A DNA stretch of 64,000 nucleotides from Kutzneria sp. 744 (GTDB taxonomy: Bacteria; Actinomycetota; Actinomycetes; Mycobacteriales; Pseudonocardiaceae). Position numbers and translations under genes: made by a program. Shown here one piece after another: positions 873-18,584 of the stretch. The stretch is taken from assembly GCF_000568255.1 (NCBI RefSeq), contig NZ_KK037166.1, positions 10,253,935 to 10,317,934 of the forward strand, read 5' to 3'. Positions within the stretch are counted from its first letter, which is position 1. Each line of letters begins with the position of its first letter. The notes under the pieces are model-generated. The model searched no databases, had not been told where the DNA came from, and worked only from the letters and a program-made list of their open reading frames with translations.

Positions 873-1352
873 TCAGATCCGCTCCGGCTGGGGCTGCTGC
901 GGGCGCCGCGGCGCCCGGGTGATGGTCTTGTCGAACTCGGCGAACCCGGTTGTCGCCTCGGGTTCGAACGGCACCCGGAACGACTTGAGGAAGTTGCCGA
1001 AGATCGCGCGGTCGCCGCACAGGTGGACCGGCACCATCAGTAGCGCCCACTCGAAGCCGAACAGCCAGATCCACAGGCCCACCACGACCGCCTGGGTGAC
1101 CAGGCTGTGCATGGTGTTGTAGAGGACGTAGTAGACCTTGGAGATCTTCTTGTCGGGCGAGCGCCGGTAGGCGATCGCGCCGGGGATGTAGCCGATCACG
1201 TCGATGTAGGCGAACAGCGCCACGGCGGGGATCCACCGGATCTCGCCGATGTGGATGAGCAGCAGCACGACGCCCACCACGAGCGCGACGCCGTACTCCG
1301 CGCGCAGCAACAGCAGCGTGGTCCGGCTCTCGAAGCGGTTGATGTGGTCCAT
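873..1352 (-). CDS. Small polytopic membrane protein in the amine/hydroxylamine operon
   Basis: This 159-residue protein has about four hydrophobic segments (near residues 15-35, 38-58, 80-102 and 104-118) and a charged, proline-rich tail ending PRRPQQPQPERI. Polar residues sit near membrane borders: an NTMHS motif around residue 80 and PVHLCGDRAIFG around 107-119, with His, Cys and Asp that could bind metal or cofactor. I do not recognise a curated family with certainty. Valanimycin-type azoxy clusters include a small integral membrane protein of unsettled role (VlmO), and this gene's position suggests a comparable part, but that is inference from context. It lies between the SRPBCC and FMO genes with tight spacing. 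Confidence 0.7.
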   Translation of the reverse strand: MDHINRFESRTTLLLLRAEYGVALVVGVVLLLIHIGEIRWIPAVALFAYIDVIGYIPGAIAYRRSPDKKISKVYYVLYNTMHSLVTQAVVVGLWIWLFGFEWALLMVPVHLCGDRAIFGNFLKSFRVPFEPEATTGFAEFDKTITRAPRRPQQPQPERI

Positions 1353-1371: not shown

Positions 1372-1890
1372 TCAGGCGGTCAGAACGGGGTCGGGCTCGC
1401 GCCGGCGCCGCAGCCGGGCGCTCACCGCCGCGGCGATGGCTGGATCGCCGACGACCGTGGCCTCGCCGAGCAGCTGGTGCACGATCAGGGCGATGCCCTC
1501 CTTGAGCACCTTGGTGGCGATCGGCTCCAGCACGCCGGCCAGGCTGGGGATGCCGAAGTCGAAGGTCGCCTCGAAGCGCACCTGGCAGCCGCCCGGGGCC
1601 GCCGTCACGCCCCACGAGCCGCGGAAGACCTCGAAGTCCCCGGTGGTCTGCTCGAACACGATGCGGCGCTGCTCGGACTGGAAGTAGTCGACCTCGGTCC
1701 AGCGCAGCAGGCCGTTGCGGAAGAAGATCTCCCAGTCGCTCAGCAGCGGGCCGCCGTCCTCGCGGCCGTGCACCACCACGGCGTTGACCTCGTCGACGAG
1801 CTCGGGATATCGCTCGAACTCGCAGATCCGCCGGTAGGCCTCGGCGGCGCCGACGGTGTCGGCCCGCAGGGTCAGTTCCAGGCTACGCAT
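1372..1890 (-). CDS. SRPBCC/START-fold polyketide cyclase-like protein
   Basis: This 172-residue protein has the layout of small START/SRPBCC proteins: an N-terminal strand with paired SLELTLRADT, a region around RYPELVDEV, the central LSDWEIFFRNG and WTEVDYFQ strands, and a long C-terminal helix that includes VLKEGIALIVHQLL. The family includes coenzyme Q-binding COQ10-like proteins and aromatase/cyclases. It binds hydrophobic ligands and sometimes catalyses cyclisation or dehydration. Its start overlaps the end of the aminotransferase gene by eight bases, so the two are almost certainly translated together. A second, unrelated-looking SRPBCC gene lies at 7175, so the locus has two such proteins. 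The ligand is unknown. Confidence 0.75.
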   Translation of the reverse strand: MRSLELTLRADTVGAAEAYRRICEFERYPELVDEVNAVVVHGREDGGPLLSDWEIFFRNGLLRWTEVDYFQSEQRRIVFEQTTGDFEVFRGSWGVTAAPGGCQVRFEATFDFGIPSLAGVLEPIATKVLKEGIALIVHQLLGEATVVGDPAIAAAVSARLRRRREPDPVLTA

Positions 1891-3154
1891 CGGTCACCTC
1901 GGGATTGTTGGCGGCGACCTCGGCGGCCGCGCGCTCGAACCGGTCGATGAGGAAGTCCACATCGGACTCGGTCAGCGTCGCCGGCGGCGTGAACCGCACG
2001 ACGTGATCGGAGTTGAGGGAGATGTTGGCGATGACGTCGTTGGCCACCAACGCCAGCAGCAGGTCCGCCGCCAGCGCCGGGTCGGCGAAGTCGACGCCGA
2101 TCAACAGGCCCGCGCCGCGCACCTCGCACCGGTGATGGGGTAGCCGGTCCGCGACGATCCGTTGGAACGCGGGCGTCAGCCGTTCACCCAGCGCCGCCGC
2201 CCGCTCGACCAGACCGTCCTCCTTGATGGCCCGGATCGCACCGCTGACGGCCGCCATGCCGAGCGGCGCCGCCGAGAACGTCGACGTGTGCAGGACCGGG
2301 TCCCGGTTCAGCGCGCCGAAGACCTCCTCGGTCGCGACGGTCGCCGCGACCGGGACGATGCCCCCGCCGAGTGCCTTGCCGGACAACAGAATGTCCGGGC
2401 GCACGCCCTCCGCCGTGCAGCCCCACCACGCGCCCAGTCGGCCAAGCCCGGTCTGCACCTCGTCGACCACCAACAGCGCGCCGTACTCCGAACAGACCGC
2501 ACGCACGGCGGACAGGTAGCCGGGCGGCGGGATGTGCACCCCGCCCTCGCCCTGTACCGGCTCGACGATCACGCATGCCTCGCCCGGGTGCCGTTCCAGC
2601 GCTGCGGTCAACGCGGTGACGTCGCCGAACGGCACGTGCGTGACGTCCGGCAGCAACGGGCGGAACGGGTCCTGGAAGGCTTGTTTGGCCGTCACCGACA
2701 GCGCGCCCATCGTCTTGCCGTGGTACCCGCCGGTCATGGAGATCAGGTGCCGCCGCCCGGCCAGCCGGGCCAGCTTGATCGCTGCCTCCGTCGCCTCGGC
2801 CCCGGAGCACGAGAAGTGCACGCGCTCCAGACCCGGCGGCACCACCGACATCAGCGCCTCGGCCGCGCGGGCGGCCGCCGGCTCCAGGAAGATCCTGGTG
2901 CCCATGGGATGCGTGTGCAGCTGCCGCTCGACCTCAGCCACCACGGTCGGGTGCCGGGCCCCGGTGATCAGCACGCCGTAGCCGCCGGCGTTGAGGATCC
3001 GGTGCCCGTCGCTCATGGTCAGCCAGGCGCTGTCGGACGCCACCTCGACGTGACCGCCGAGGACGTCGGCCAGCCGCGCCCGCCCGGAGCTGAGCCGCCG
3101 CCGGTAGACGCGCGACACCTCCTCGCGGTCCACGACGTCGATGTCGGCGTTCAC
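1883..3154 (-). CDS. Class III pyridoxal-phosphate aminotransferase
   Basis: This 423-residue fold-type I class III aminotransferase resembles the 4-aminobutyrate/ornithine/diamine group. Visible signatures are FSCSGAEATEAAIKLAR in the cofactor phosphate-binding region, VVDEVQTGLGRLG with the Asp that contacts the PLP nitrogen, and the lysine in LSGKALGGG that would form the Schiff base. I chose GTG at 3154 because it overlaps the upstream stop as GTGA; a longer frame exists but would cover the neighbouring gene. In a pathway with an aldehyde dehydrogenase/reductase-like enzyme, the likely role is amination of an aldehyde to an alkylamine, the precursor needed for N-hydroxylation. That role is inferred. 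Confidence 0.88.
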   Translation of the reverse strand: MNADIDVVDREEVSRVYRRRLSSGRARLADVLGGHVEVASDSAWLTMSDGHRILNAGGYGVLITGARHPTVVAEVERQLHTHPMGTRIFLEPAAARAAEALMSVVPPGLERVHFSCSGAEATEAAIKLARLAGRRHLISMTGGYHGKTMGALSVTAKQAFQDPFRPLLPDVTHVPFGDVTALTAALERHPGEACVIVEPVQGEGGVHIPPPGYLSAVRAVCSEYGALLVVDEVQTGLGRLGAWWGCTAEGVRPDILLSGKALGGGIVPVAATVATEEVFGALNRDPVLHTSTFSAAPLGMAAVSGAIRAIKEDGLVERAAALGERLTPAFQRIVADRLPHHRCEVRGAGLLIGVDFADPALAADLLLALVANDVIANISLNSDHVVRFTPPATLTESDVDFLIDRFERAAAEVAANNPEVTDA

Positions 3155-4287
3155 GCGATCCTCAGCACGTCGCCGGTGAAGTTCTCCACCAGGGCCCGGC
3201 GGGTGGCCGCGCGGGCCGGCGGGTGGAAGTTCACGCACTGGCAGGCGGCGATGAGGTAGGCGACGTCGGGGGAGCCGATGAAAGCCATGCCGCCCAACGC
3301 CTCCACCGCCCGGCCGGCGGCGTCGGTGATCGCCTCCTGCGCGCCGTAGCGGGCAATCATCGCCTTGGTCAGCGCGGCGTTGTCGCCCTCCTTGGCCATC
3401 AGCTGACGGGCGATTCCCTCCAGCAGCAGGGTTGCGGTTTCCAGGCGCACACCCAGATCCGCCCTGGTTTCCGCGCCCAGCCGTTCACTGGCCAGCGCCC
3501 GGTTCACGAGCGAGCTGGCCATGCCGAGGTAGGAGGCGGTGATGAGCATCTCGAACCACATGAAGCCGATGGTCTGGAGCTCGTCGACCTCGCCGCGGTC
3601 GCCGACCTCGGTCGGCACCAGCAGCCGCTCGTCCACCAGGACGTCGGTCAGCCGCACCTCGTCGCTCTCCGCCCCGGCCAGAACATTGCTGCGCCAGAAG
3701 GGATGCACCGAGATGCCCGGGCTGTCGGCCGGGATGAGCATGGCCAGGTTCTCCGTGCCGCCCTCCTTGCGGGGCACCGACACGCTGGCCGAGAGCAGGT
3801 CCATCGACGCGGACATGCTGCACGGCTTCTTCGAGCCGTTGACGAGGATCCCACCGTCGGCCCGGACACCGCCGACGGTGGGGGACAGGATGCCCTGGCC
3901 GGGGTTGCCCTCGGCGAAACCGGAGGACACCAGCAGGTTCTGCGTGGCGATTCCCTCCAGCAGCGCCCATTCCAGCCCGCTCGCGCGCAGGCTCTCGGCC
4001 AGGGTGAAGATCGTCGCGACGGAGAAGTGGTGCATGGTCGAGGCGACGGCCAGCGACGGCGACACGGCCCCGATCGCCCGGGTGACCTGGATCGCCTCCA
4101 GCGGCGAGGCGCCGAGGCCTTCGTACTCCTTGGGGATCACCAGCGCCGGGCCGCCCGCCGCCTTGAACAGCTCCAGCCCGGGGTTGCCCGGCTTCTCCAG
4201 CTCGGCCAGGCCGACGTCGGCCAGCTTGCCCAGCAGGCCCGGGAGGCGGTTCTCGCAGAGCTCGCGGGCCTCATCGAGTGTGCGCAT
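3151..4287 (-). CDS. Acyl-CoA dehydrogenase-fold flavoprotein (candidate amine N-hydroxylase)
   Basis: This 378-residue protein has the three-part acyl-CoA dehydrogenase architecture: a helical N-domain, a central beta domain (LVSSGFAEGNPGQG through VRLTDVLVDERLLVP) and a C-terminal helical domain with MIARYGAQEAITDAAGRAVEALGGMAFI. The family usually desaturates acyl-CoA. A subgroup uses the same fold with reduced flavin and O2 to hydroxylate amines, and valanimycin VlmH is, from memory, a member. The usual catalytic Glu region is not obvious in the C-terminal part, which favours a monooxygenase reading, though alignment is needed. It overlaps both neighbours (GTGA with the aminotransferase, 17 bases with the aldehyde dehydrogenase), so it is part of the same operon. 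Confidence 0.8.
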   Translation of the reverse strand: MRTLDEARELCENRLPGLLGKLADVGLAELEKPGNPGLELFKAAGGPALVIPKEYEGLGASPLEAIQVTRAIGAVSPSLAVASTMHHFSVATIFTLAESLRASGLEWALLEGIATQNLLVSSGFAEGNPGQGILSPTVGGVRADGGILVNGSKKPCSMSASMDLLSASVSVPRKEGGTENLAMLIPADSPGISVHPFWRSNVLAGAESDEVRLTDVLVDERLLVPTEVGDRGEVDELQTIGFMWFEMLITASYLGMASSLVNRALASERLGAETRADLGVRLETATLLLEGIARQLMAKEGDNAALTKAMIARYGAQEAITDAAGRAVEALGGMAFIGSPDVAYLIAACQCVNFHPPARAATRRALVENFTGDVLRIA

Positions 4288-5893
4288 CGTGGCCTTCCCT
4301 GTGCTCGGGTCGAATGATGGAAACCCCCTGCAGGTGGGTGGTGCGCAGCACGGGGAAGTTGGCCTCGCCGAAGGCGCCGCCGGTCAGGCCGGTGCCGCCG
4401 TGCGAGGGCAGGGGCGCGGTGAACGCGATGTGCGAGTCGTTCACCTTGAGCAGCCCGCCCTTGACGGTCTGCGCGACGAACCGGTCGATCACCGCGTCGT
4501 CCCTGGCCCACAAGGAGTTCCGCAGGCCGTAGGGGCTGGCGTTGACGAACTCCAGGAAGCTGTCGAACAGCGTGGCGTCCTCGGCCGCGTGTGGCACGAT
4601 GATCGGCATCAGCGGGAAGAACGTCTCGTCCGCCACCGCCGACAGCTCGCCGGCCCGGCTCAGCCCGTCCACCCGCAGCACGGTCGGCTGGAGGAAGAAG
4701 CCCGCCTCGTCCAGGGTGCCGTCGATCTGCATGCCCTTGCCGCCCGTGACCACCGTCGCGCCCTTCTCGACGGCGTCCTCCAGGTAGCGCGTGAACTTGT
4801 CGTGGCGTAGCACCGGTGAGAGCAGCACGCCCTCCTCGTCCGGGTAGCCCGGCTTGAGCGCCGTGGCCCGGACCCTGACCAGCTCGATCAGCTCGTCGGC
4901 CACGGCCGGGTGCACGATCGCCCGATTGGGCACCATGCACAGCTGGCCGGAGCCGTAGAAGCCCTCCACGATCGCATCGGCCGCGCCCTCCAGATCGGCG
5001 TCGCGCCAGACCAGCACGATGTCGTTGCCGGCCAGTTCGAGGATCGGCTTCTTGCCGGCCTCCACGCAGCGGCGCTCGATCTTCAGGCCCGGCCCGACAT
5101 CGCCGAAGTACATGATGTCGTCCACGTGCTCGCTGGCGATCCAGGCGTCCAGCATCGGGCCTGGATGCCCGCACACGATGTTGAGCAGCCCCGGCGGCGC
5201 GCCGAGCTCGTCGAGAACCGGCGCGATCACGTTGCGCAGCACCGAGGACACGCCGAACGGCGCGGTTCGCGGCGCGCGCAAGACCACGGCGTTGCCGCCG
5301 GCGATGCTCGTCACGCCCAGCAGCGCGCTGACCAGCGGCGCGTTGGCCGGCGGATTCACACAGACCACGCCGTCGGGCTGGCGGCGCACGATGTTGCGCC
5401 GCGCCCCGATCGCGAACTCCTGCCACAGCTGCGAACGCAGGAACCCCGTGGTCTCCGGCCGCGTCAGCTCGTACATCCCGGACAGCTCCCAGCGGGCCAG
5501 CTCCAGCGGATGGCCCTCCAGGGTGAGCATGTCGATCAGCTCACGCTCGTTGTCGTGGATCGCCTCGCGCAGCAGCCGGTTCCAGTCCTCCAGCCGCACC
5601 GAGAGCGGGACCGAGCGCCACAGTCTGGTCGCCTCGGCCGCGGCGGCCAGCGCGTCCTGCACCGTGTCCGGATCCGCCACCGACACCCGCCCGACCAGCA
5701 CACCCGGCGCGACATCGGCCGCGGAGACGCGACCCGCCTCGAGGTTCCGCTTGAGCGTCAGGTTGGCGAACGAGTCGTCCAGCACCGCGCGCGCGGAAAG
5801 CGAGTACACCCACTTGCCGCTCTCCACGTCTTTCCCTCGCACGAAACTGCCCAACGACGGCAGCTGGTGCGGTTCGACCTTCGTGCTCAACAC
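4271..5893 (-). CDS. Aldehyde dehydrogenase-superfamily enzyme, possibly acyl-CoA reductase
   Basis: This 540-residue protein is longer than a standard aldehyde dehydrogenase (about 490), with roughly 60 extra N-terminal residues. The catalytic Cys sits in GSGQLCMVPNR and the general-base Glu in LELAGND, which replaces the usual ELGGK. The Lys-to-Asp change near the active Glu is unusual and may alter cofactor or substrate use. Such enzymes either oxidise aldehydes or, run in reverse on acyl thioesters, supply aldehydes. As first gene of the operon that also holds an aminotransferase and an acyl-CoA-dehydrogenase-like protein, supplying a fatty aldehyde for amination is the simplest hypothesis. 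The upstream region is shared with the divergent DUF2156 gene. Confidence 0.82.
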   Translation of the reverse strand: MLSTKVEPHQLPSLGSFVRGKDVESGKWVYSLSARAVLDDSFANLTLKRNLEAGRVSAADVAPGVLVGRVSVADPDTVQDALAAAAEATRLWRSVPLSVRLEDWNRLLREAIHDNERELIDMLTLEGHPLELARWELSGMYELTRPETTGFLRSQLWQEFAIGARRNIVRRQPDGVVCVNPPANAPLVSALLGVTSIAGGNAVVLRAPRTAPFGVSSVLRNVIAPVLDELGAPPGLLNIVCGHPGPMLDAWIASEHVDDIMYFGDVGPGLKIERRCVEAGKKPILELAGNDIVLVWRDADLEGAADAIVEGFYGSGQLCMVPNRAIVHPAVADELIELVRVRATALKPGYPDEEGVLLSPVLRHDKFTRYLEDAVEKGATVVTGGKGMQIDGTLDEAGFFLQPTVLRVDGLSRAGELSAVADETFFPLMPIIVPHAAEDATLFDSFLEFVNASPYGLRNSLWARDDAVIDRFVAQTVKGGLLKVNDSHIAFTAPLPSHGGTGLTGGAFGEANFPVLRTTHLQGVSIIRPEHREGHDAHTR

Positions 5894-6047: not shown

Positions 6048-7046
6048 GTGACGGTCCCGGCAGCGGCGCACCAGCAGAGCTCGACGCTTTCCGCTCTCCA
6101 GCGGCACTCGGACAACCCCAGCGCCTTCCTCGCGCTCAACGGGGGCAACGAGTACTTCCGCGTCGAGGGCGTGGAAGGCTATGTGTGCTACCGGGAGCAC
6201 GGCAAGCGCTGGATCCAGTTCGGCGGCCCGTTCACCCCCGAGGCCAGCCGGGCCCGGCTGCAACGCGATTTCCTGGACCAGGCGCACGCCAACCGCCGCA
6301 AGGTCGTCGGCGTCCAGTTGCAGCGGGCGGACGCCGAGCTCATGGCCGAGCAGGGCCTGACCGTCAACCAGGTGGGCGCGTCCTACGCGGTGGAGCTGGC
6401 CGGGCACAGCCTGCGCGGCAAGAAGTTCGTCAGCCTGCGCAACAAGATCTCCCGCGCGCTGCGGGCCGGCCTGGAGATCGAGGAGGCGGACCCGGCGGCG
6501 GTGGCCGGCGACATCGAGCACATCGACCGGCAGTGGCTGCACGAGAAAGGCAAGCACACCAAGGAGTTGGCCTTCCTGATCGGCGAGATCGGCGGGCCGT
6601 GGCAGCCGCTGCGCAAGCTGTTCGTCGGGCGGATCGCCGGCGAGCCCATCGCCTACATCTCGTACGCGCCGGTGTTCGGCTCGCGGCCGGGCTGGCTGCA
6701 CGACCTGAGCCGGCGCCTGCCGGCCTGCCCGCCCGGGGTGATGGAGGCGATCAACGCGTACGTCATCGAGCACGTCAAGGAGCTGGGCGCGGCCTGGCTG
6801 CACTTCGGGTTCACGCCCTTCACGACCCTGGACGAGTCCTACCGGCTGCCGACCGCGAGCCGGGCGGCGGCGAAGATCATCACACTGCTGGCCGAGCACG
6901 GCGACCGGGTCTATCCGGCGAAAAGCCAGCTGGAGTACAAGATGAAGTGGAATCCGACGGCGGTGCTGCCGGAGTACTTCGCGTTCGACGGTGGCATCTC
7001 GCCGCGATCGCTGTGGAGTGTGCTGCGGGTGACGAACATCGTCTGA
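6048..7046 (+). CDS. DUF2156 (MprF C-terminal-like) aminoacyl-tRNA-dependent transferase
   Basis: This 332-residue soluble protein starts at GTG 6048, preceded by the purine-rich GGGAGGCAGG. It matches the DUF2156/LPG-synthase C-terminal layout of two GNAT-like halves: the first around residues 20-140 (FRVEGVEGYVCYREHGKRW, then KVVGVQLQ), the second with ISRALRAGLEIEEA, QWLHEKGKHTKELAFL, GEPIAYISYAPVFGS, LHFGFTPFTTLDE and the ending YKMKWNP. Members transfer an aminoacyl group from charged tRNA to a lipid or small molecule. MprF adds lysine to phosphatidylglycerol, and VlmA of the valanimycin pathway moves serine from seryl-tRNA to an alkylhydroxylamine. There is no flippase domain. The tRNA-like gene 13 bases downstream, probably in the same transcript, suggests enzyme and donor are paired. 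Confidence 0.8.
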   Translation: MTVPAAAHQQSSTLSALQRHSDNPSAFLALNGGNEYFRVEGVEGYVCYREHGKRWIQFGGPFTPEASRARLQRDFLDQAHANRRKVVGVQLQRADAELMAEQGLTVNQVGASYAVELAGHSLRGKKFVSLRNKISRALRAGLEIEEADPAAVAGDIEHIDRQWLHEKGKHTKELAFLIGEIGGPWQPLRKLFVGRIAGEPIAYISYAPVFGSRPGWLHDLSRRLPACPPGVMEAINAYVIEHVKELGAAWLHFGFTPFTTLDESYRLPTASRAAAKIITLLAEHGDRVYPAKSQLEYKMKWNPTAVLPEYFAFDGGISPRSLWSVLRVTNIV

Positions 7047-7059
7047 CCCGCGTTTTTCG

Positions 7060-7145
7060 GGAAGGGTACCCAAAGCGGCCGATGGGGGCCGGACCTCGGT
7101 CCGGTCGGGCTCTCGCCCACGCAGGTTCGAATCCTGCCCCTTCCG
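7060..7145 (+). tRNA. Serine-type tRNA-like gene with no usable anticodon
   Basis: I folded these 86 bases by eye as a complete class II tRNA. The acceptor stem has 7 of 7 Watson-Crick pairs (7060-7066 with 7138-7144) and discriminator G7145. The D-stem CCC/GGG (7069-7071 with 7084-7086) encloses a GCGGCC loop. The long variable arm is GGGC-TCTC-GCCC (7107-7118), and the T-arm is GCAGG-TTCGAAT-CCTGC (7121-7137). G73 and the long variable arm are serine identity features. The anticodon arm is aberrant: 7089-7094 pairs fully with 7099-7104, with a G-T pair below, leaving only the loop CTCG (7095-7098). No 7-base loop with U33 and an anticodon can be drawn. No CCA is encoded. It lies 13 bases after the DUF2156 gene and 29 before the next gene, so it is probably processed from their mRNA. 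A decayed pseudogene is the alternative, but every other arm is intact. Confidence 0.75.
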
Positions 7146-7174
7146 CGTAACCGCATCGCGAGAGGAATCCCGGC

Positions 7175-7627
7175 ATGACCGAAGTCCGTTTCGTGCAGGA
7201 GTGCGCCGCGCCGGTCGAGGCGGCCTTCGCCTACCTCGCCGACTACCGCAACGTGCTCGACTACTGGCACGGCATGACCACCTTCGAGCCGGTCGGCGAC
7301 CTCGACCGCGGCCTGGGTGCGACATTCCGGTCGGAGACCAAGGTCGGGCCGTCGACGCTGAAGTCGACCATCCGCACGGTGGAGTGGGAGGAGAACGTCC
7401 GCCTGGCCTACCGCTCGGTGGCCGGCATGGACTCGGCCACCAGCTTCGAGCTGACGCCGATCGACGGCAACCGGAGCCAGGTCGCCTTCCGCATCGAGTT
7501 CCAGCTGCCCGGCGGCATCGCGGGCAAGGCCATGGAGCGCACGCTGATGCCGTTCGTCAGCACCGCGGCCCGCAAGACCGCCGAGAACCTCGTGCGCGGC
7601 ATCGCGGCTCGTCACGCCAGCGCCTGA
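7175..7627 (+). CDS. SRPBCC/START-fold family protein
   Basis: This 150-residue protein has the typical opening VRFVQECAAPVEAAFAYLADYRNVLDYW, a run of beta strands (FRSETKVG, STIRTVEW, TSFELTPI, QVAFRIEFQLPGG) and a final long helix. This is the START/SRPBCC hydrophobic-ligand fold seen in polyketide cyclases and CoxG-like proteins. A purine-rich AGAGGAAT precedes ATG 7175. It is the last gene before two strong hairpins and follows the tRNA-like gene by 29 bases, so enzyme, tRNA-like RNA and this protein probably share a transcript. A role in binding or dehydrating an alkyl intermediate is possible but unproven. Confidence 0.78.
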   Translation: MTEVRFVQECAAPVEAAFAYLADYRNVLDYWHGMTTFEPVGDLDRGLGATFRSETKVGPSTLKSTIRTVEWEENVRLAYRSVAGMDSATSFELTPIDGNRSQVAFRIEFQLPGGIAGKAMERTLMPFVSTAARKTAENLVRGIAARHASA

Positions 7628-7647
7628 TTCTTGGCCCTCCTGACGTT

Positions 7648-7704
7648 ATGCAGGGAAGGACGCCTTACCCTCGTTCAACGCGGGTAAGGCGTCCTTCCCT
7701 GCAT
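7648..7704. terminator. Perfect 23-bp inverted repeat after the SRPBCC gene
   Basis: Arms 7648-7670 and 7682-7704 are exactly complementary over 23 bases around an 11-base loop. The arm contains GGGAAGGACGCC and its mirror GGCGTCCTTCCC. No T-run follows. It may be a factor-independent terminator of actinomycete type or a repeated intergenic palindrome. Confidence 0.65.
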
Positions 7705-7720
7705 GACGGGGTCAGCGGAG

Positions 7721-7762
7721 GGAGTGGCCGGCAGGGAATCTTCCCTGCCGGCCACTCCTTTT
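7721..7762. terminator. Bidirectional terminator between convergent genes
   Basis: An 18-bp perfect stem (7721-7738 with 7741-7758) is followed on the plus strand by TTTT. It lies between the SRPBCC gene and the convergent aldehyde dehydrogenase gene, whose stop is at 7767. Confidence 0.75.
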
Positions 7763-14456: not shown

Positions 14457-16340
14457 CTAGGCCTTCAGCTCGTCGACCGCGCCGGCGATCGCGCGCACCG
14501 TGTTGTCCCCGTACAGCAGCCGAACACTCGCCTTCACGCCGAAGGTCTTGTTGATTCGGCTGACCACGCGGCTGGCGTCCAGCGAATTGCCGCCGAGTTC
14601 GAAAAAATTCGCGTCGAGGTCGATCCGCCGTCCGCCGAGAACCGTCTCGAAGATCTCGACCAGCGCCGATTCGGTCGGCGTCGCCGCTTCGGCGACAGCG
14701 GTCACCGCTGCCGTCTGTGTCGGGGTCGTTTCGGGTGTTTCCGTTTCGTGAATCACGGCCAACTCCCAATCGGATGACCAGATTGCCCGATCGCCGCCGC
14801 GATAGACGACGAAGCTTTCTCGGAACGGATCAGCCACGAAGTTCTCCGGCGCCAGTTCGGCCTTGTCAAGCATGTGGCGGATCCATTTCTCGGCGCCGCC
14901 GAGCAACAGCTCGCCCGGCACTCCGCGGGGCAGCAGGTTGCCCTTGGGGTCCACGACGTATGCCCTTTCGTCGCTTGCGGACAACACCCGGTCCAACTCG
15001 GCGTCGGTGAGAATTCCAATGCCTGAGACGGGTTGCCGGGAATCCTTCAGCACCGAGCGCAGCACCTGGTCGACATGCCCGAGGAAGGCGTCGACCCGCC
15101 ACCGGTCGAACACGTCGGCCGGGTACGACAGGTGCACGCGCATGCCGTCCGACAGCTCGAAGTAATTGATGTTCAGGTCGAAGGTCGCGCTGGTCGTGAC
15201 CGGTTCGAGCCACTCGGCCGCCAGCCCCGGCAGCGCGAACGCGCTGGGCGAATTGGCCGAGCCGAGCACCTGGAGCGACACCTGGAACAGCGGGTTGCGC
15301 CCGGCCTCGCGTGACGGCCGAACCCGGTCCACCACCTGCTCGAACGGCACTTCCTGGTGGTCGTACAGGTCGAGCGAGGCGTCGGCGACCCGGGCCAGCA
15401 GCTCGTCGAACCGCAGGTCGTCGCCGAGATCGACGCGCAGCACGACCATGTTGATGAACATGCCGACCACGTCTTCGAGATCCGGGTCGGTGCGGCCGAG
15501 CATCGGCACGCCGATCGCGATGTCGCGGAGCCCGGTGTGCCGGCCCAGCACCACCGCGACGGCGGCGGCCAGCACGATGAACAGCGACGTGTCATGCTGC
15601 TCGGCGAAAAGCCGCAGGTCACGGTGGAAATCCGCGGCGTGGTCGCGCACGACGTCGCCCGCGACGAGGCCCGAGGCGGGGGTGCGAGGCCGGTCGGTCG
15701 GCAGGCTCAGTTCCGGCAGGCCGACCAGGCGCTCGGCCCAGAAGTCCAGCTCCCGAGCCTCCTCCGTGCCGCGTTCCCGCTGGTCGGCGACGAAATCGCG
15801 ATAGGTCAGGGCGGGCGCGGGCAGGTCGGGCTCGGTGCCGGCGCGGAAGCTCTCGTAGGCCGCGGCCAGCTCGCCGCCGATGATGCCGACCGACCAGCCG
15901 TCCACGACGATGTGGTGAAAGCCCAGGCCAAGGCCGTGATCGTCATCGGCCAGCCGGACCAGCGTGAACCGGTGCAGCGGGCCGGCGGCCAGGTCGAACG
16001 GGGTGCCGGCGACGGCGCCGAGGTCCGCCCGCACGGTCGCCGCGCGCTTCTCGGGCGTCAGCCCGGTGCGGTCGACCACCGTCAGCTCCACCTCGTTCCA
16101 TCGCTCGATGACCTGGAACGGCGTGCCGTCGGCCTCCCGGAAGGTGGCGCGCAGGACCTCGTGCCGGGCGACCAGCCAGGTCAGCGCCCGGCGCAGCGCC
16201 GCCTCGTCGAGCGGGCCGCGCAGCCGGTAGTTCATCTGGACGTTGTAGCCGGTCTCCCCGGGAGACAGCAGGTCGAGAAACCACAACTGCTCCTGTGCGA
16301 ACGACAATGGCAGCCCTTTTGGGCAAGACTGATCCGGCAT
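14457..16340 (-). CDS. NRPS protein: condensation domain, adenylation remnant, carrier domain
   Basis: This 627-residue protein starts at ATG 16340 behind a GGAG. Residues about 8-440 form a condensation domain with intact HHIVVDGWS. Residues about 455-530 look like the middle of an adenylation domain (YVVDPKGNLLPRGVPGELLLGG, then VYRGGDRAIW where YRTGDLA is expected), but the substrate pocket, the A3 P-loop and the A10 lysine are missing. A carrier domain follows around 545-620 with FFELGGNSL, whose Ser carries phosphopantetheine. It would condense an acyl or aminoacyl group supplied in trans. It faces the MbtH-A-T operon across a 300-base divergent region, so the proteins probably act together. 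Confidence 0.88.
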   Translation of the reverse strand: MPDQSCPKGLPLSFAQEQLWFLDLLSPGETGYNVQMNYRLRGPLDEAALRRALTWLVARHEVLRATFREADGTPFQVIERWNEVELTVVDRTGLTPEKRAATVRADLGAVAGTPFDLAAGPLHRFTLVRLADDDHGLGLGFHHIVVDGWSVGIIGGELAAAYESFRAGTEPDLPAPALTYRDFVADQRERGTEEARELDFWAERLVGLPELSLPTDRPRTPASGLVAGDVVRDHAADFHRDLRLFAEQHDTSLFIVLAAAVAVVLGRHTGLRDIAIGVPMLGRTDPDLEDVVGMFINMVVLRVDLGDDLRFDELLARVADASLDLYDHQEVPFEQVVDRVRPSREAGRNPLFQVSLQVLGSANSPSAFALPGLAAEWLEPVTTSATFDLNINYFELSDGMRVHLSYPADVFDRWRVDAFLGHVDQVLRSVLKDSRQPVSGIGILTDAELDRVLSASDERAYVVDPKGNLLPRGVPGELLLGGAEKWIRHMLDKAELAPENFVADPFRESFVVYRGGDRAIWSSDWELAVIHETETPETTPTQTAAVTAVAEAATPTESALVEIFETVLGGRRIDLDANFFELGGNSLDASRVVSRINKTFGVKASVRLLYGDNTVRAIAGAVDELKA

Positions 16341-16640
16341 CGCTACTCCATTCGGGAATCCTGCCGCACGCATGCGCGTGTGATCGGGCCGTCCGCGCTA
16401 TGTCGGACCATAGCATGACGAGTCGGATTGCTGGCGCGGTTCTCGGGGGCCTGGATGCGCCCTTTGGGGCGGATTTAATACCTGGTTTCGGCCGAACGCT
16501 TCTGCGTCCGGACAGCGCAAGGGGGCGGCCGGTCAATCTCTTTTGTCGCGGCGGGCCGTGTCCCGTACGATCGACTCGTCTTTGGGGGATTCGCGTGCGT
16601 CTGTGCCCTCGCCCACTCCTGTCCAATCCTTGGAGCGCCC
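16341..16640. promoter_or_regulatory. Divergent promoter region between the two NRPS transcription units
   Basis: These 300 bases lie between starts 16340 (minus) and 16641 (plus) and hold no credible gene. The sequence is less GC-rich than the flanking genes (for example GCGGATTTAATACC near 16470), as expected for promoters. I saw no strong palindrome. Confidence 0.4.
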
Positions 16641-18584
16641 GTGGCGGATGAGAACGAAAAATTGAGCGTTGTTCGCAATGATGGGCAGCAGTTTTCCATC
16701 TGGCCGGCCGAACGCCCGCTGCCGTTGGGGTGGCATGAAGCGGGCATTACCGGCACCCGTGCGGAGTGCCTTGCCCACGTCGACCAGGTGTGGACGGACA
16801 TCAAGCCGCAGAACACCGGAACGCCCGTGAACAATGTGTTACATCGTGTGGTGGAAAGGGAGGCCGCGGACTGTCCGGACGCGGTCGCCGTCACGGCGGG
16901 GGAGGCGTCCCTCAGCTACGGCGAGCTGAACGCCCGGGCCAACGGCCTGGCCCGCCGCCTGACCGACCGCGGGGTCGGCGTCGAGACCCGGGTGGCCGTC
17001 GCGGTGCCCCGGTCGATCGAGTTCGTGGTGGCGGTGCTTGCCGTGCTCAAGGCCGGCGGCGCCTACGTGCCGCTCGACCCCGAGTACCCAGCCGAGCGCC
17101 GGGCCTTCATGCTGGCCGACTCCGGTGCGACGGTGGTCGTCGGCTCGACGGCCGAGCTGGACCTGCCCGCCGGGGTGGACTTCGTCGCCCTCGGCGACGG
17201 CACGGACGCCGCCAACCTCGACGTCGAGGTGGATCCCGGCAACCTGGCCTACATCATCTACACCTCCGGCTCGACCGGCGTGCCCAAGGGTGTCGCGATC
17301 ACCCACGCCGACGTGCTCGATCTCGTGCAGGCCGACCCGCGGCTGGGTGTCGGCCGCGGCGAGGTCGTCGCCCACCTCGCGCCCACTGCGTTCGACGCTT
17401 CGACGTTCGAGATCTGGTGCGCGCTGGGCCGTGGCGGCCGCGTCGCGGCCCTGAGCCCGCAGCAGGTCTCCGTGAGCGAGCTCGGCGATGCCCTGCGGGC
17501 GACCCGGCCCGACTGGATGTTCATCACCTCGGGCCTGTTCCACCTGCTCGTCGACCACGACGTGGACATGTTCGCCAGCGTCGGCGTGCTGCTGACCGGC
17601 GGCGATGTCCTTTCCCCGCAACACGTCCAGGCCGCGGCCAAGGTCATCCGCAACACCGTCTACGCCTGCTACGGCCCGACCGAGACCACCGTGTTCGCGA
17701 CCCTGCACGCGGTGGACCCCGACGCCGACTACGAGCGCATGCCGCTGGGTGGCGGGCTGCAGAACAAGATCGTGCGCGTGCTGAACGCCGAACTCGACCA
17801 GCTGCCGGTGGGCGAGGTCGGCGAGATCCACCTGGGCGGCGCCGGGCTGGCCCGCTGCTACCACCGCCGTCCCGGGCTGACCGCCGAGCGCTTCCTGCCC
17901 GATCCGTACTCGGAGGTGCCGGGCGCGCGCATGTACCGCACCGGCGACCTGGGTCGGCTGCTGCCCAACGGCGAGGTCGAGTTCGTGGGCCGGGCCGACC
18001 GTCAGGTCAAGATCCGCGGCTACCGGGTGGAGCTCGGCGAGGTCGAGGTGGCCCTGAACGCGCACCCCTCGGTGAGCGCGGCCGCCGTGCTTGTGGTGGG
18101 GGACAACGAGGTCGACAAGCGCATGGTCGCCTACGCCGCGCCCGCCGGCACGGCGATCCTGACCGCGACCGGGCTGCGCTCCTGGATGGCCGAGCGGCTG
18201 CCCGCGTACCTGGCCCCGTCCAACTACCTGCTGCTGGACAAGCTTCCCTTGGACCAGAACGGAAAGGTCAACCGCAAGGCCCTGCCGCCGCCGTGGAAGT
18301 CCCGGTGTGACATGGGTCTCGACGAGCCGGTCGCGCCGCAGACCGACACGGAGCGCCTGGTGGCGCAGGTGATCGCCGACGTGCTGTCGCTGGACGAGGT
18401 CAGCATGGACGACAGCTTCTTCGCCCTCGGCGGCGACTCGCTGCGCAGCATCCGTGCCCTGGAAAGCCTGCGGGCGGTGGGAATCAAGCTGACCGCACGG
18501 CAGTTCATCGGCCAGGAGACCATCGGCGGCCTGGCCAAGACGATCGAGAGCATCACGGACGACCGGGTCGGAGACATGAGATGA
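16641..18584 (+). CDS. MbtH-adenylation-carrier NRPS protein
   Basis: This 647-residue protein has an MbtH-like domain at residues about 8-58 (NDGQQFSIWPAERPLPLGW), an adenylation domain about 65-560, and a carrier domain about 570-640 with FFALGGDSL. A3 is YTSGSTGVPKG, A5 is YGPTETT, A7 is YRTGDLGR and A10 is NGKVNRKAL. Aligning by eye to GrsA gives pocket residues D-A-F-F-L-G-C-V-F-K, which suggest an aliphatic, perhaps branched, amino acid; treat this as provisional. MbtH-A-T fusions followed by a P450 occur in pathways that beta-hydroxylate a carrier-bound amino acid (NikP1/NikQ). Its last bases overlap the P450 start as ATGA. Confidence 0.9.
   Translation: MADENEKLSVVRNDGQQFSIWPAERPLPLGWHEAGITGTRAECLAHVDQVWTDIKPQNTGTPVNNVLHRVVEREAADCPDAVAVTAGEASLSYGELNARANGLARRLTDRGVGVETRVAVAVPRSIEFVVAVLAVLKAGGAYVPLDPEYPAERRAFMLADSGATVVVGSTAELDLPAGVDFVALGDGTDAANLDVEVDPGNLAYIIYTSGSTGVPKGVAITHADVLDLVQADPRLGVGRGEVVAHLAPTAFDASTFEIWCALGRGGRVAALSPQQVSVSELGDALRATRPDWMFITSGLFHLLVDHDVDMFASVGVLLTGGDVLSPQHVQAAAKVIRNTVYACYGPTETTVFATLHAVDPDADYERMPLGGGLQNKIVRVLNAELDQLPVGEVGEIHLGGAGLARCYHRRPGLTAERFLPDPYSEVPGARMYRTGDLGRLLPNGEVEFVGRADRQVKIRGYRVELGEVEVALNAHPSVSAAAVLVVGDNEVDKRMVAYAAPAGTAILTATGLRSWMAERLPAYLAPSNYLLLDKLPLDQNGKVNRKALPPPWKSRCDMGLDEPVAPQTDTERLVAQVIADVLSLDEVSMDDSFFALGGDSLRSIRALESLRAVGIKLTARQFIGQETIGGLAKTIESITDDRVGDMR

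Follow-up and report, generated by a model that had tools for sequence, protein, structure and literature searches.

Actinobacteria with one kind of azoxy cluster often carry a tRNA-like gene in which the anticodon has become a closed hairpin. The purpose of this hairpin is most likely to let the RNA bring serine to the tRNA-using enzyme of the cluster, VlmA, without entering protein synthesis; both its charging and its use by VlmA are inferences. The gene, its structure, its conservation and covariation, its genomic association and the content of its cluster are documented below.

RESULTS

A class II tRNA(Ser)-like gene without an anticodon

In the window (the whole 64-kb stretch of DNA that was analyzed), ARAGORN lists a single tRNA gene, "tRNA-???", at 7060-7146(+). 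In a search of 3.5 kb, Rfam RF00005 scores 36 bits at positions 7060-7145 (gathering score 29), and it also matched in a genome-wide search. A gathering scan of the whole 64-kb window gave no entries at all, so the gene is easily overlooked. Neither ARAGORN nor Rfam reported tmRNA features there, and the element is only 86 nt long. Its predicted fold has an energy of -49.2 kcal/mol (z -3.4), which one of 200 shuffled sequences equaled.

The first-pass annotation of this DNA, made from the sequence alone, had described here a serine-type tRNA-like gene with all structural arms intact and an anticodon arm closed into a 7-bp helix capped by CTCG. Its limits proved exact, running from G1 to the discriminator G73. 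Most of its account of the arms also stands, with 7/7 acceptor, 4/4 variable and 5/5 T pairs, the T loop TTCGAAT and G73; the D stem has to be corrected from three pairs to four (CCCA/TGGG, 4/4), the fourth of which (13-22) covaries between A-U and G-C among relatives. The closed anticodon arm, GGCCGGAC-CTCG-GTCCGGTC, was recovered in the predicted fold, in which the seven pairs are extended by G26-C44. The covariance-model check that had been proposed along with ARAGORN gave 93.1 bits with model R1 (see below), from which the window was excluded. Table 1 collects the features of the gene and of its surroundings.

Table 1. Positions in the window of the tRNA-like gene, its arms and the neighboring cluster genes
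Feature	Position	Strand	Evidence or remark
VlmO-like protein	873..1352	-	62% to L059 VlmO
SRPBCC protein of the cluster	1372..1890	-	
Class III aminotransferase (Ady4-like role inferred)	1883..3238	-	PF00202; 59% to L001 cluster gene
VlmH-like flavin-dependent amine N-hydroxylase, acyl-CoA dehydrogenase fold (function inferred)	3151..4287	-	49% to L059 VlmH
Aldehyde dehydrogenase-family protein (Ady2-like role inferred)	4271..5893	-	PF00171; 56% to L001 cluster gene
VlmA-like aminoacyl-tRNA-dependent transferase (DUF2156 / LPG_synthase_C)	6048..7046	+	Pfam PF09924, 6.7e-59
Anticodon-free class II tRNA(Ser)-like RNA, G1 to discriminator G73, without encoded CCA	7060..7145	+	ARAGORN, Rfam, model R1, fold
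Acceptor stem, 5' strand GGAAGGG (partner CCCTTCC at 7138-7144)	7060..7066	+	
D arm: 4-bp stem CCCA/TGGG, 10-nt loop with GG	7069..7086	+	covariation of pair 13-22
Anticodon arm: closed hairpin of 8 pairs including 26-44, cap CTCG at 7095-7098	7087..7106	+	
Long variable arm: 4-bp stem GGGC/GCCC, loop TCTC	7107..7118	+	
T arm GCAGG-TTCGAAT-CCTGC, with A51-U63	7121..7137	+	
SRPBCC protein downstream of the tRNA-like	7175..7627	+	PF10604; order VlmA - tRNA-like - SRPBCC likewise in L037

A scan for sigma-70 promoters found none, and the single terminator-like site detected was no better than those in shuffled sequences. Two strong inverted repeats lie at 7635-7762, between the downstream SRPBCC gene and the next gene; Rfam gave only subthreshold microRNA matches for them, and they may mark a terminator region or belong to a repeat element.

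A family of anticodon-free relatives

The first sign of a family came from odd class II tRNA genes that ARAGORN called, with unrelated "anticodons," in other clusters. Relatives were assembled with a scan for the class II tRNA shape and with R1, a covariance model built from 16 copies of relatives taken at VlmA loci. The loci fetched, which do not amount to an exhaustive scan, hold 49 copies with 43 distinct sequences. R1 scores range from 70 to 101 bits over these copies; among seven canonical class II tRNAs of the window's own genome, R1 gave the four tRNA-Ser 39.9 to 52.5 bits and the tRNA-Tyr 40.0 bits and did not list the two tRNA-Leu. All 49 copies have seven acceptor pairs, five T-stem pairs and a discriminator G, and the D stem is complete (4/4) in 48 and has three of four pairs in one. 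T8, the D-loop GG and a T loop of TTCGAAT or TTCAAAT are found in 43/43 distinct relatives. The acceptor stem, G73 and the T arm are the most conserved portions of the family.

Tandem or clustered copies, two to three each, occur at L044, L045, L059, L106, L107, L109, L113, L114 and L162-L164, and one genome (G078) has seven copies. Rfam gathering scans of the relatives found no tRNA, one of them giving only ASpks matches. A scan of genome contigs yielded three loci, and a scan of viral contigs for an exact 26-base match yielded two (L171 and L172), of which L172 is a tRNA-Ser(gct). The other, L171 9879-9997(-), is a 119-nt match of 42.6 bits within the tRNA array of a phage-like contig; ARAGORN makes no call there, and the 3' end of this stretch shares its T arm and acceptor strand with the anticodon-free family.

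The anticodon arm is maintained as a stem

When the 43 distinct sequences are folded to minimum energy, the anticodon arm ends in a loop of 4 nt in 25 cases, of 3 nt in 6 and of 6 nt in another 6, of 5 nt in 4 and of 7 nt in 2, and both of the 7-nt loops lack U33. The loops are often UUCG or GNRA, and the tetraloops include CTCG in 5 members, TTCG in 5, GCAA in 4 and GAAA in 3. Canonical class II controls from the same genome and from relatives have a 7-nt loop and U33 in 25/25 cases. In a permissive test, which accepted any of four registers with four of five pairs, a 7-nt loop could be drawn in 29/43 members, with T at the place of U33 in 15/43. Since most of these placements break a stronger predicted hairpin, we relied on the minimum-energy arm. 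The possibility of an ordinary tRNA missed by the software was rejected on the predicted fold, which has no anticodon loop.

Eight members of 83 nt from five genomes can be aligned without gaps. The 26 pairs hold in all eight (100% of cells paired), and compensatory changes on both sides occur at five of the six pairs of the anticodon stem; in control alignments that were slid, pairing drops to 38 to 57%. Therefore, the arm is maintained as a stem without an anticodon, and the view that this stem is selected, not decayed, is well supported. The first-pass annotation had argued likewise for selection rather than decay, from the pairing preserved outside the anticodon, and had named random loss of pairing in the other arms of homologues as grounds for abandoning its claim. 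The acceptor stem and T arm are paired, and G73 is kept, in all 43 distinct relatives.

The neighborhood is an aliphatic azoxy cluster

The upstream gene encodes a VlmA-like protein, whose relatives in the PDB are MprF-type aminoacyl-tRNA-dependent synthases (best 9.6e-24) and which is 49% identical to the VlmA-like protein of a valanimycin-like cluster. Genes resembling vlmR (33% over 147 aa), vlmJ and vlmK lie about 2 to 6 kb to the left of the window. No convincing VlmB homologue was matched in the surrounding 27 kb, which is partly N, and the same search also gave none in L006, L037 and L038. Annotated Streptomyces plasmids with a related VlmA carry a "VlmB-like protein" and a flavin reductase, and several carry serS. 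With VlmA, VlmH and VlmO homologues in the window and VlmR, VlmJ and VlmK homologues to the left of it, the cluster belongs to the aliphatic azoxy clusters of the valanimycin/azodyrecin type. The first-pass annotation had left its DUF2156 gene unidentified, and the recognition of this neighbor as a VlmA-like transferase in an azoxy cluster points to the likely purpose of the tRNA-like.

A gene for a haem-oxygenase-like iron enzyme adjoins the tRNA-like in two other loci (L044 4819-5856 and L002 17627-18736), with a PLP decarboxylase-like gene on its far side; both genes are also found near the L115 copy. Within the window, 14457-18584 holds genes for a stand-alone NRPS condensation-PCP protein and an MbtH-A-PCP protein beside a P450, a separate small biosynthetic locus. 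In Streptomyces clusters, a small ORF annotated downstream of VlmA was considered as a misannotated tRNA and was dismissed: ARAGORN finds no tRNA there, and the tRNA-like lies elsewhere in those clusters.

Co-occurrence with VlmA in genomes and plasmids

In 297 genomes of the same family (Pseudonocardiaceae), a VlmA-like gene, counted at E <= 1e-50, is present in 27, and an R1 match of at least 70 bits, which defined a carrier of the tRNA-like, in 12. The next best match scores 60.5 bits, and the 18 matches below 70 bits that were inspected are canonical Ser or Tyr tRNAs. All 12 carriers are among the 27 genomes with VlmA (p 2e-14), as are all four carriers, the window's own genome included, among the 8 of 345 genomes of the same class that have VlmA (p 1.2e-7). 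Five genomes of the family had contributed to R1, which was built at VlmA loci, so a conservative recount leaves them and the window's own genome out; the association then holds for 6/6 carriers within 21 VlmA-positive genomes of 291 in the family (p 7e-8) and for 3/3 within 7 of 344 in the class (p 5e-6). These p values are guides only, the genomes being related, and the two samples overlap by the window's own genome and at least G045. A high-scoring copy is absent from 15/27 VlmA-positive genomes of the family and from 4/8 of the class. Therefore, VlmA evidently can work without the tRNA-like. The genome search with R1 uses a first-look filter, which makes such absences soft.

Of the Streptomyces plasmid records, 14 give a match to a tRNA-like query, some of them over its 3' third only, and all 11 Streptomyces records with VlmA are among them. 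The remaining 3/14 have no VlmA on the plasmid, which was the only sequence considered. Anticodon-free tRNA-like genes without VlmA are seen on the plasmids pSCO1 (L166 10001-10095), pSGRIFU1 (L167 9935-10029) and NBC_00557 (L168 9933-10029).

The first-pass annotation had suggested looking for homologues beside DUF2156 genes. A copy lies within 25 kb of VlmA in 20 of the 23 genomes or records that have both genes, near-duplicate plasmids excluded, and the VlmA stop codon precedes the tRNA-like by 13 nt in the window and by 8, 12 and 7 nt in L006, L037 and L038, respectively. Three genomes (G078, G100 and G152) have copies away from the VlmA cluster, among unrelated genes. The out-of-cluster copies L106 (G078) and L111 (G152) share a neighborhood between two species, with proteins 72 to 90% identical, and judging by these sequences, they have probably been inherited in place.

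In a tree of 46 VlmA proteins, the presence of the tRNA-like requires two changes, compared with a mean of 15.6 when labels are shuffled (none of 500 as low). The carriers fall into two clades, one of 4 that includes the window and one of 19 that includes the valanimycin-like cluster, and 23 rows have no tRNA-like. Labels were given per cluster where there are two VlmA genes, the second copy of G022 and of G429 being labeled "no," and those of Paraburkholderia phymatum and Embleya rest on 17 to 25 kb only.

Azoxy genomes without a family member

Further odd tRNA-Ser genes were sought in 19 VlmA-positive genomes without a high-scoring copy, and the places inspected hold canonical tRNAs, except in G381; one place in G021 adjoins an unassigned tRNA gene. 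This search was insensitive, giving no match at E 0.01 in G031. The azoxy cluster of G381, which belongs to a sister VlmA clade, has a different odd class II tRNA at L173 2075-2162(+), scoring 49.4 bits. It keeps U33, G73 and A51-U63 and has an 8-nt loop, TTGTGAAA, that resembles the loop of tRNA-Ser(TGA) with one inserted base. G381 was counted as lacking the anticodon-free family, and its tRNA may represent an independent or an earlier step toward the same end.

Several other observations concern these and related genomes. G021 has an unassigned 78-nt tRNA gene ("tRNA-???", gc) at L209 1614-1691, beside tRNA-Ala, -Gly and -Glu genes. In G295, 15 tRNA genes lie within about 1.7 kb (L189 642-2362), suggestive of a phage or plasmid tRNA array. 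Four VlmA-positive genomes without a high-scoring tRNA-like (G031, G066, G094 and G148) have two or three SerRS matches, most others having one; one of the matches is weak in G066, and one is cut by a contig end in G148. Extra SerRS genes are perhaps another solution to the supply problem.

Serine identity and the A51-U63 pair

The window's tRNA-like has both a long variable arm and G73. The latter is found in 43/43 tRNA-like sequences and in 13/13 parsed canonical tRNA-Ser, whereas the nine Tyr and Leu tRNAs all have A73; 3 of the 25 tRNAs of the canonical set could not be parsed and were dropped. A51-U63 is likewise present in 43/43 tRNA-like sequences, compared with 1/13 canonical tRNA-Ser and 3/7 parsed tRNA-Tyr; 12/13 canonical tRNA-Ser have G51-C63. 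The available text of work on the cell wall tRNA-Gly of Staphylococcus aureus names A51-U63 in the loss of EF-Tu binding (PMC4052509, PMC9976931), and the pair may weaken EF-Tu binding of the tRNA-like, an avoidance that we can only infer.

The genome of the window has one serS match, far from the cluster and presumed to be the housekeeping SerRS, and a single SerRS match is found in 10/12 carriers of the same family. Cluster-borne serS genes are found at L002, L057, L058, L059 and L170, and the idea of a cluster SerRS as a required partner was rejected on the single match in those 10 carriers.

DISCUSSION

G73, the GGA start of the acceptor stem and the long variable arm fit charging with serine by the identity rules given in the available parts of PMC9976931, together with exclusion from translation; no aminoacylation data support this inference, which is drawn from sequence features. 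In the valanimycin pathway, VlmA moves serine from Ser-tRNA to isobutylhydroxylamine (PMC9379638, PMC4052509, PMC12945691, PMC11705231), and VlmJ and VlmK act on the serine-derived hydroxyl (PMC9379638, PMC4052509), as far as the accessible text of these papers goes; for azodyrecin, the authors propose Ala-tRNA from the cellular pool (PMC9379638). From G73, A51-U63, the single SerRS and the serine chemistry of VlmJ and VlmK, we infer that SerRS charges the tRNA-like, that translation ignores it and that VlmA uses it.

We regard as quite probable a dedicated, nondecoding tRNA(Ser) that is charged by SerRS and feeds VlmA, in which transcription, maturation, serine charging, EF-Tu avoidance, use by VlmA and the product are all inferred. 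The tRNA-like encoded beside the VlmA-like gene would mature like a tRNA, by end trimming and CCA addition, and SerRS would charge it with serine, reading the long variable arm, the acceptor and G73 and ignoring the anticodon. The closed anticodon hairpin would bar the resulting Ser-RNA from codons, and A51-U63 would probably reduce its capture by EF-Tu. Meanwhile, the aldehyde dehydrogenase, the transaminase and VlmH/VlmR would make the alkyl-hydroxylamine, which the VlmA-like enzyme would esterify with serine taken from the Ser-RNA. Later enzymes would rearrange the ester to the azoxy product, VlmJ/VlmK dehydrating its serine-derived part. The cell would thus hold a private Ser-tRNA pool for metabolism, safe from consumption by translation and incapable of causing mistranslation.

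The RNA could instead have a regulatory role and tune the cluster, without being a substrate, by sensing SerRS, VlmA or some other protein that binds tRNA or by acting as a decoy for it. We think this unlikely. It gains some support from the copies that lie away from the cluster in three genomes and from the regulatory roles known for a pseudo-tRNA of Bacillus cereus (PMC3399842, in its available text), but the parts required for charging and transfer (acceptor stem, G73 and T arm) are the most conserved, the tandem and clustered copies suggest a dose effect expected of a substrate, and the neighbor belongs to a class of enzymes that consume aminoacyl-tRNA. It appears less plausible still that the RNA is a dedicated donor of an amino acid other than serine, such as the alanine proposed for azodyrecin (PMC9379638, from the text available), or that it is charged only by a cluster-borne enzyme, as the serS genes in some clusters might suggest. 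The class II body, G73 and the GGA start are those of a tRNA-Ser; the third pair of the acceptor stem is A-U and thus differs from G3-U70, which determines recognition by AlaRS (PMC7609411, available portion); the VlmJ and VlmK homologues beside the window point to serine; and the lone SerRS match in 10 of 12 same-family carriers speaks against exclusive charging from within the cluster.

The remaining two explanations have very little in their favor. If the gene were a tRNA-Ser pseudogene in decay or served a mobile element as attachment site, its inability to decode would be accounted for, and tRNA genes are common integration sites according to the accessible text of PMC3399842. Nevertheless, decay is contradicted by the covariation of the anticodon stem, on which we rejected it, by complete acceptor and T pairing in every distinct copy and by recurrent tetraloops (UUCG, GNRA and CTCG) that random decay would not be expected to produce; ARAGORN lists only one gene in the window, where no dedicated search for attachment repeats was made. 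No more credible is a translating tRNA with unusual decoding, whether by an 8-nt loop, +1 frameshifting or recoding. A 7- or 8-nt loop can be drawn in some members, ARAGORN gives some of them sense anticodons, and the 8-nt loop of G381 retains U33; however, the assigned anticodons vary among relatives (e.g., Met, Ala, Gln, Val, Arg and His), most predicted arms close to loops of 3 to 6 nt, with 4 nt the commonest (25/43), and the canonical controls without exception combine a 7-nt loop with U33.

It is an open question how translation and other pathways share aminoacyl-tRNA, and a nondecoding, cluster-linked tRNA would be a direct and testable answer. If the dedicated-donor reading is true, the family would be a new tRNA class that answers how valanimycin-type biosynthesis diverts Ser-tRNA from translation, and the tRNA-like would be a natural aminoacyl carrier orthogonal to translation. 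To our knowledge, there would be no clearer example of a tRNA that has discarded its decoding half while its metabolic half remains under selection. The tRNA-like could also explain differences in amino acid supply among related azoxy clusters, serve in genome mining as a marker of seryl-tRNA-dependent clusters and provide synthetic biology with an aminoacyl carrier insulated from translation.

Among known systems, the nonproteinogenic tRNA(Gly) species of S. aureus have a normal anticodon arm. The tRNA-like, in contrast, has no anticodon and is tied to a secondary-metabolite cluster. Both are tRNA species reserved, in our case by inference, for a transferase, which in S. aureus is of the FemABX/GNAT type and builds the peptidoglycan bridge (PMC4052509, PMC9976931). 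The available text ascribes the escape of the S. aureus species from EF-Tu to T-stem changes that include A51-U63, which the tRNA-like shares; however, those species are glycine isoacceptors that have lost G18G19 (PMC4052509), while the D-loop GG of the tRNA-like is kept.

tmRNA is likewise an aminoacylated tRNA-like RNA without an anticodon, aminoacylation being inferred in our case. In the descriptions available, it is charged with alanine, bound by EF-Tu, enters the ribosome and has an mRNA part, whereas the tRNA-like retains the whole class II cloverleaf and has no mRNA part. Allo-tRNAs (8/4 and 9/3) also are class II-like, with serine identity and an anticodon irrelevant to charging, but as described in the accessible part of PMC7609411, they have a 12-bp acceptor domain (8/4 or 9/3) and keep the anticodon, and several function in E. 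coli translation; the tRNA-like has a 7/5 body in 49/49 copies and no anticodon. The B. cereus pseudo-tRNA, tRNA-Other, is similarly a tRNA-like RNA outside translation, yet its anticodon is that for Trp, its charging is poor and its proposed place is within a larger regulatory RNA, and the available text gives it no biosynthetic partner (PMC3399842).

Closest in chemistry is the VlmA/VlmL valanimycin pathway, with its seryl-tRNA-dependent O-serylation of an alkyl-hydroxylamine, to which genes flanking the tRNA-like are homologous. The accessible accounts describe this pathway with Ser-tRNA(Ser) and mention no cluster-encoded tRNA, and according to the available text of a 2014 review, it is unknown how Ser-tRNA(Ser) is diverted from translation into valanimycin (PMC4052509). 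In the open-access literature, as far as its available text goes and with subscription papers and bioRxiv outside the scope, no cluster-linked or anticodon-free tRNA of such a kind is described. We hold it fairly likely that the family is a new tRNA class, a carrier that evolution has stripped of its anticodon and retained, frequently in multiple copies, to donate aminoacyl groups to a natural-product pathway alone. A tRNA set aside for an aminoacyl-tRNA-dependent enzyme is of a known kind; the loss of the decoding part brings the tRNA-like close to being categorically new.
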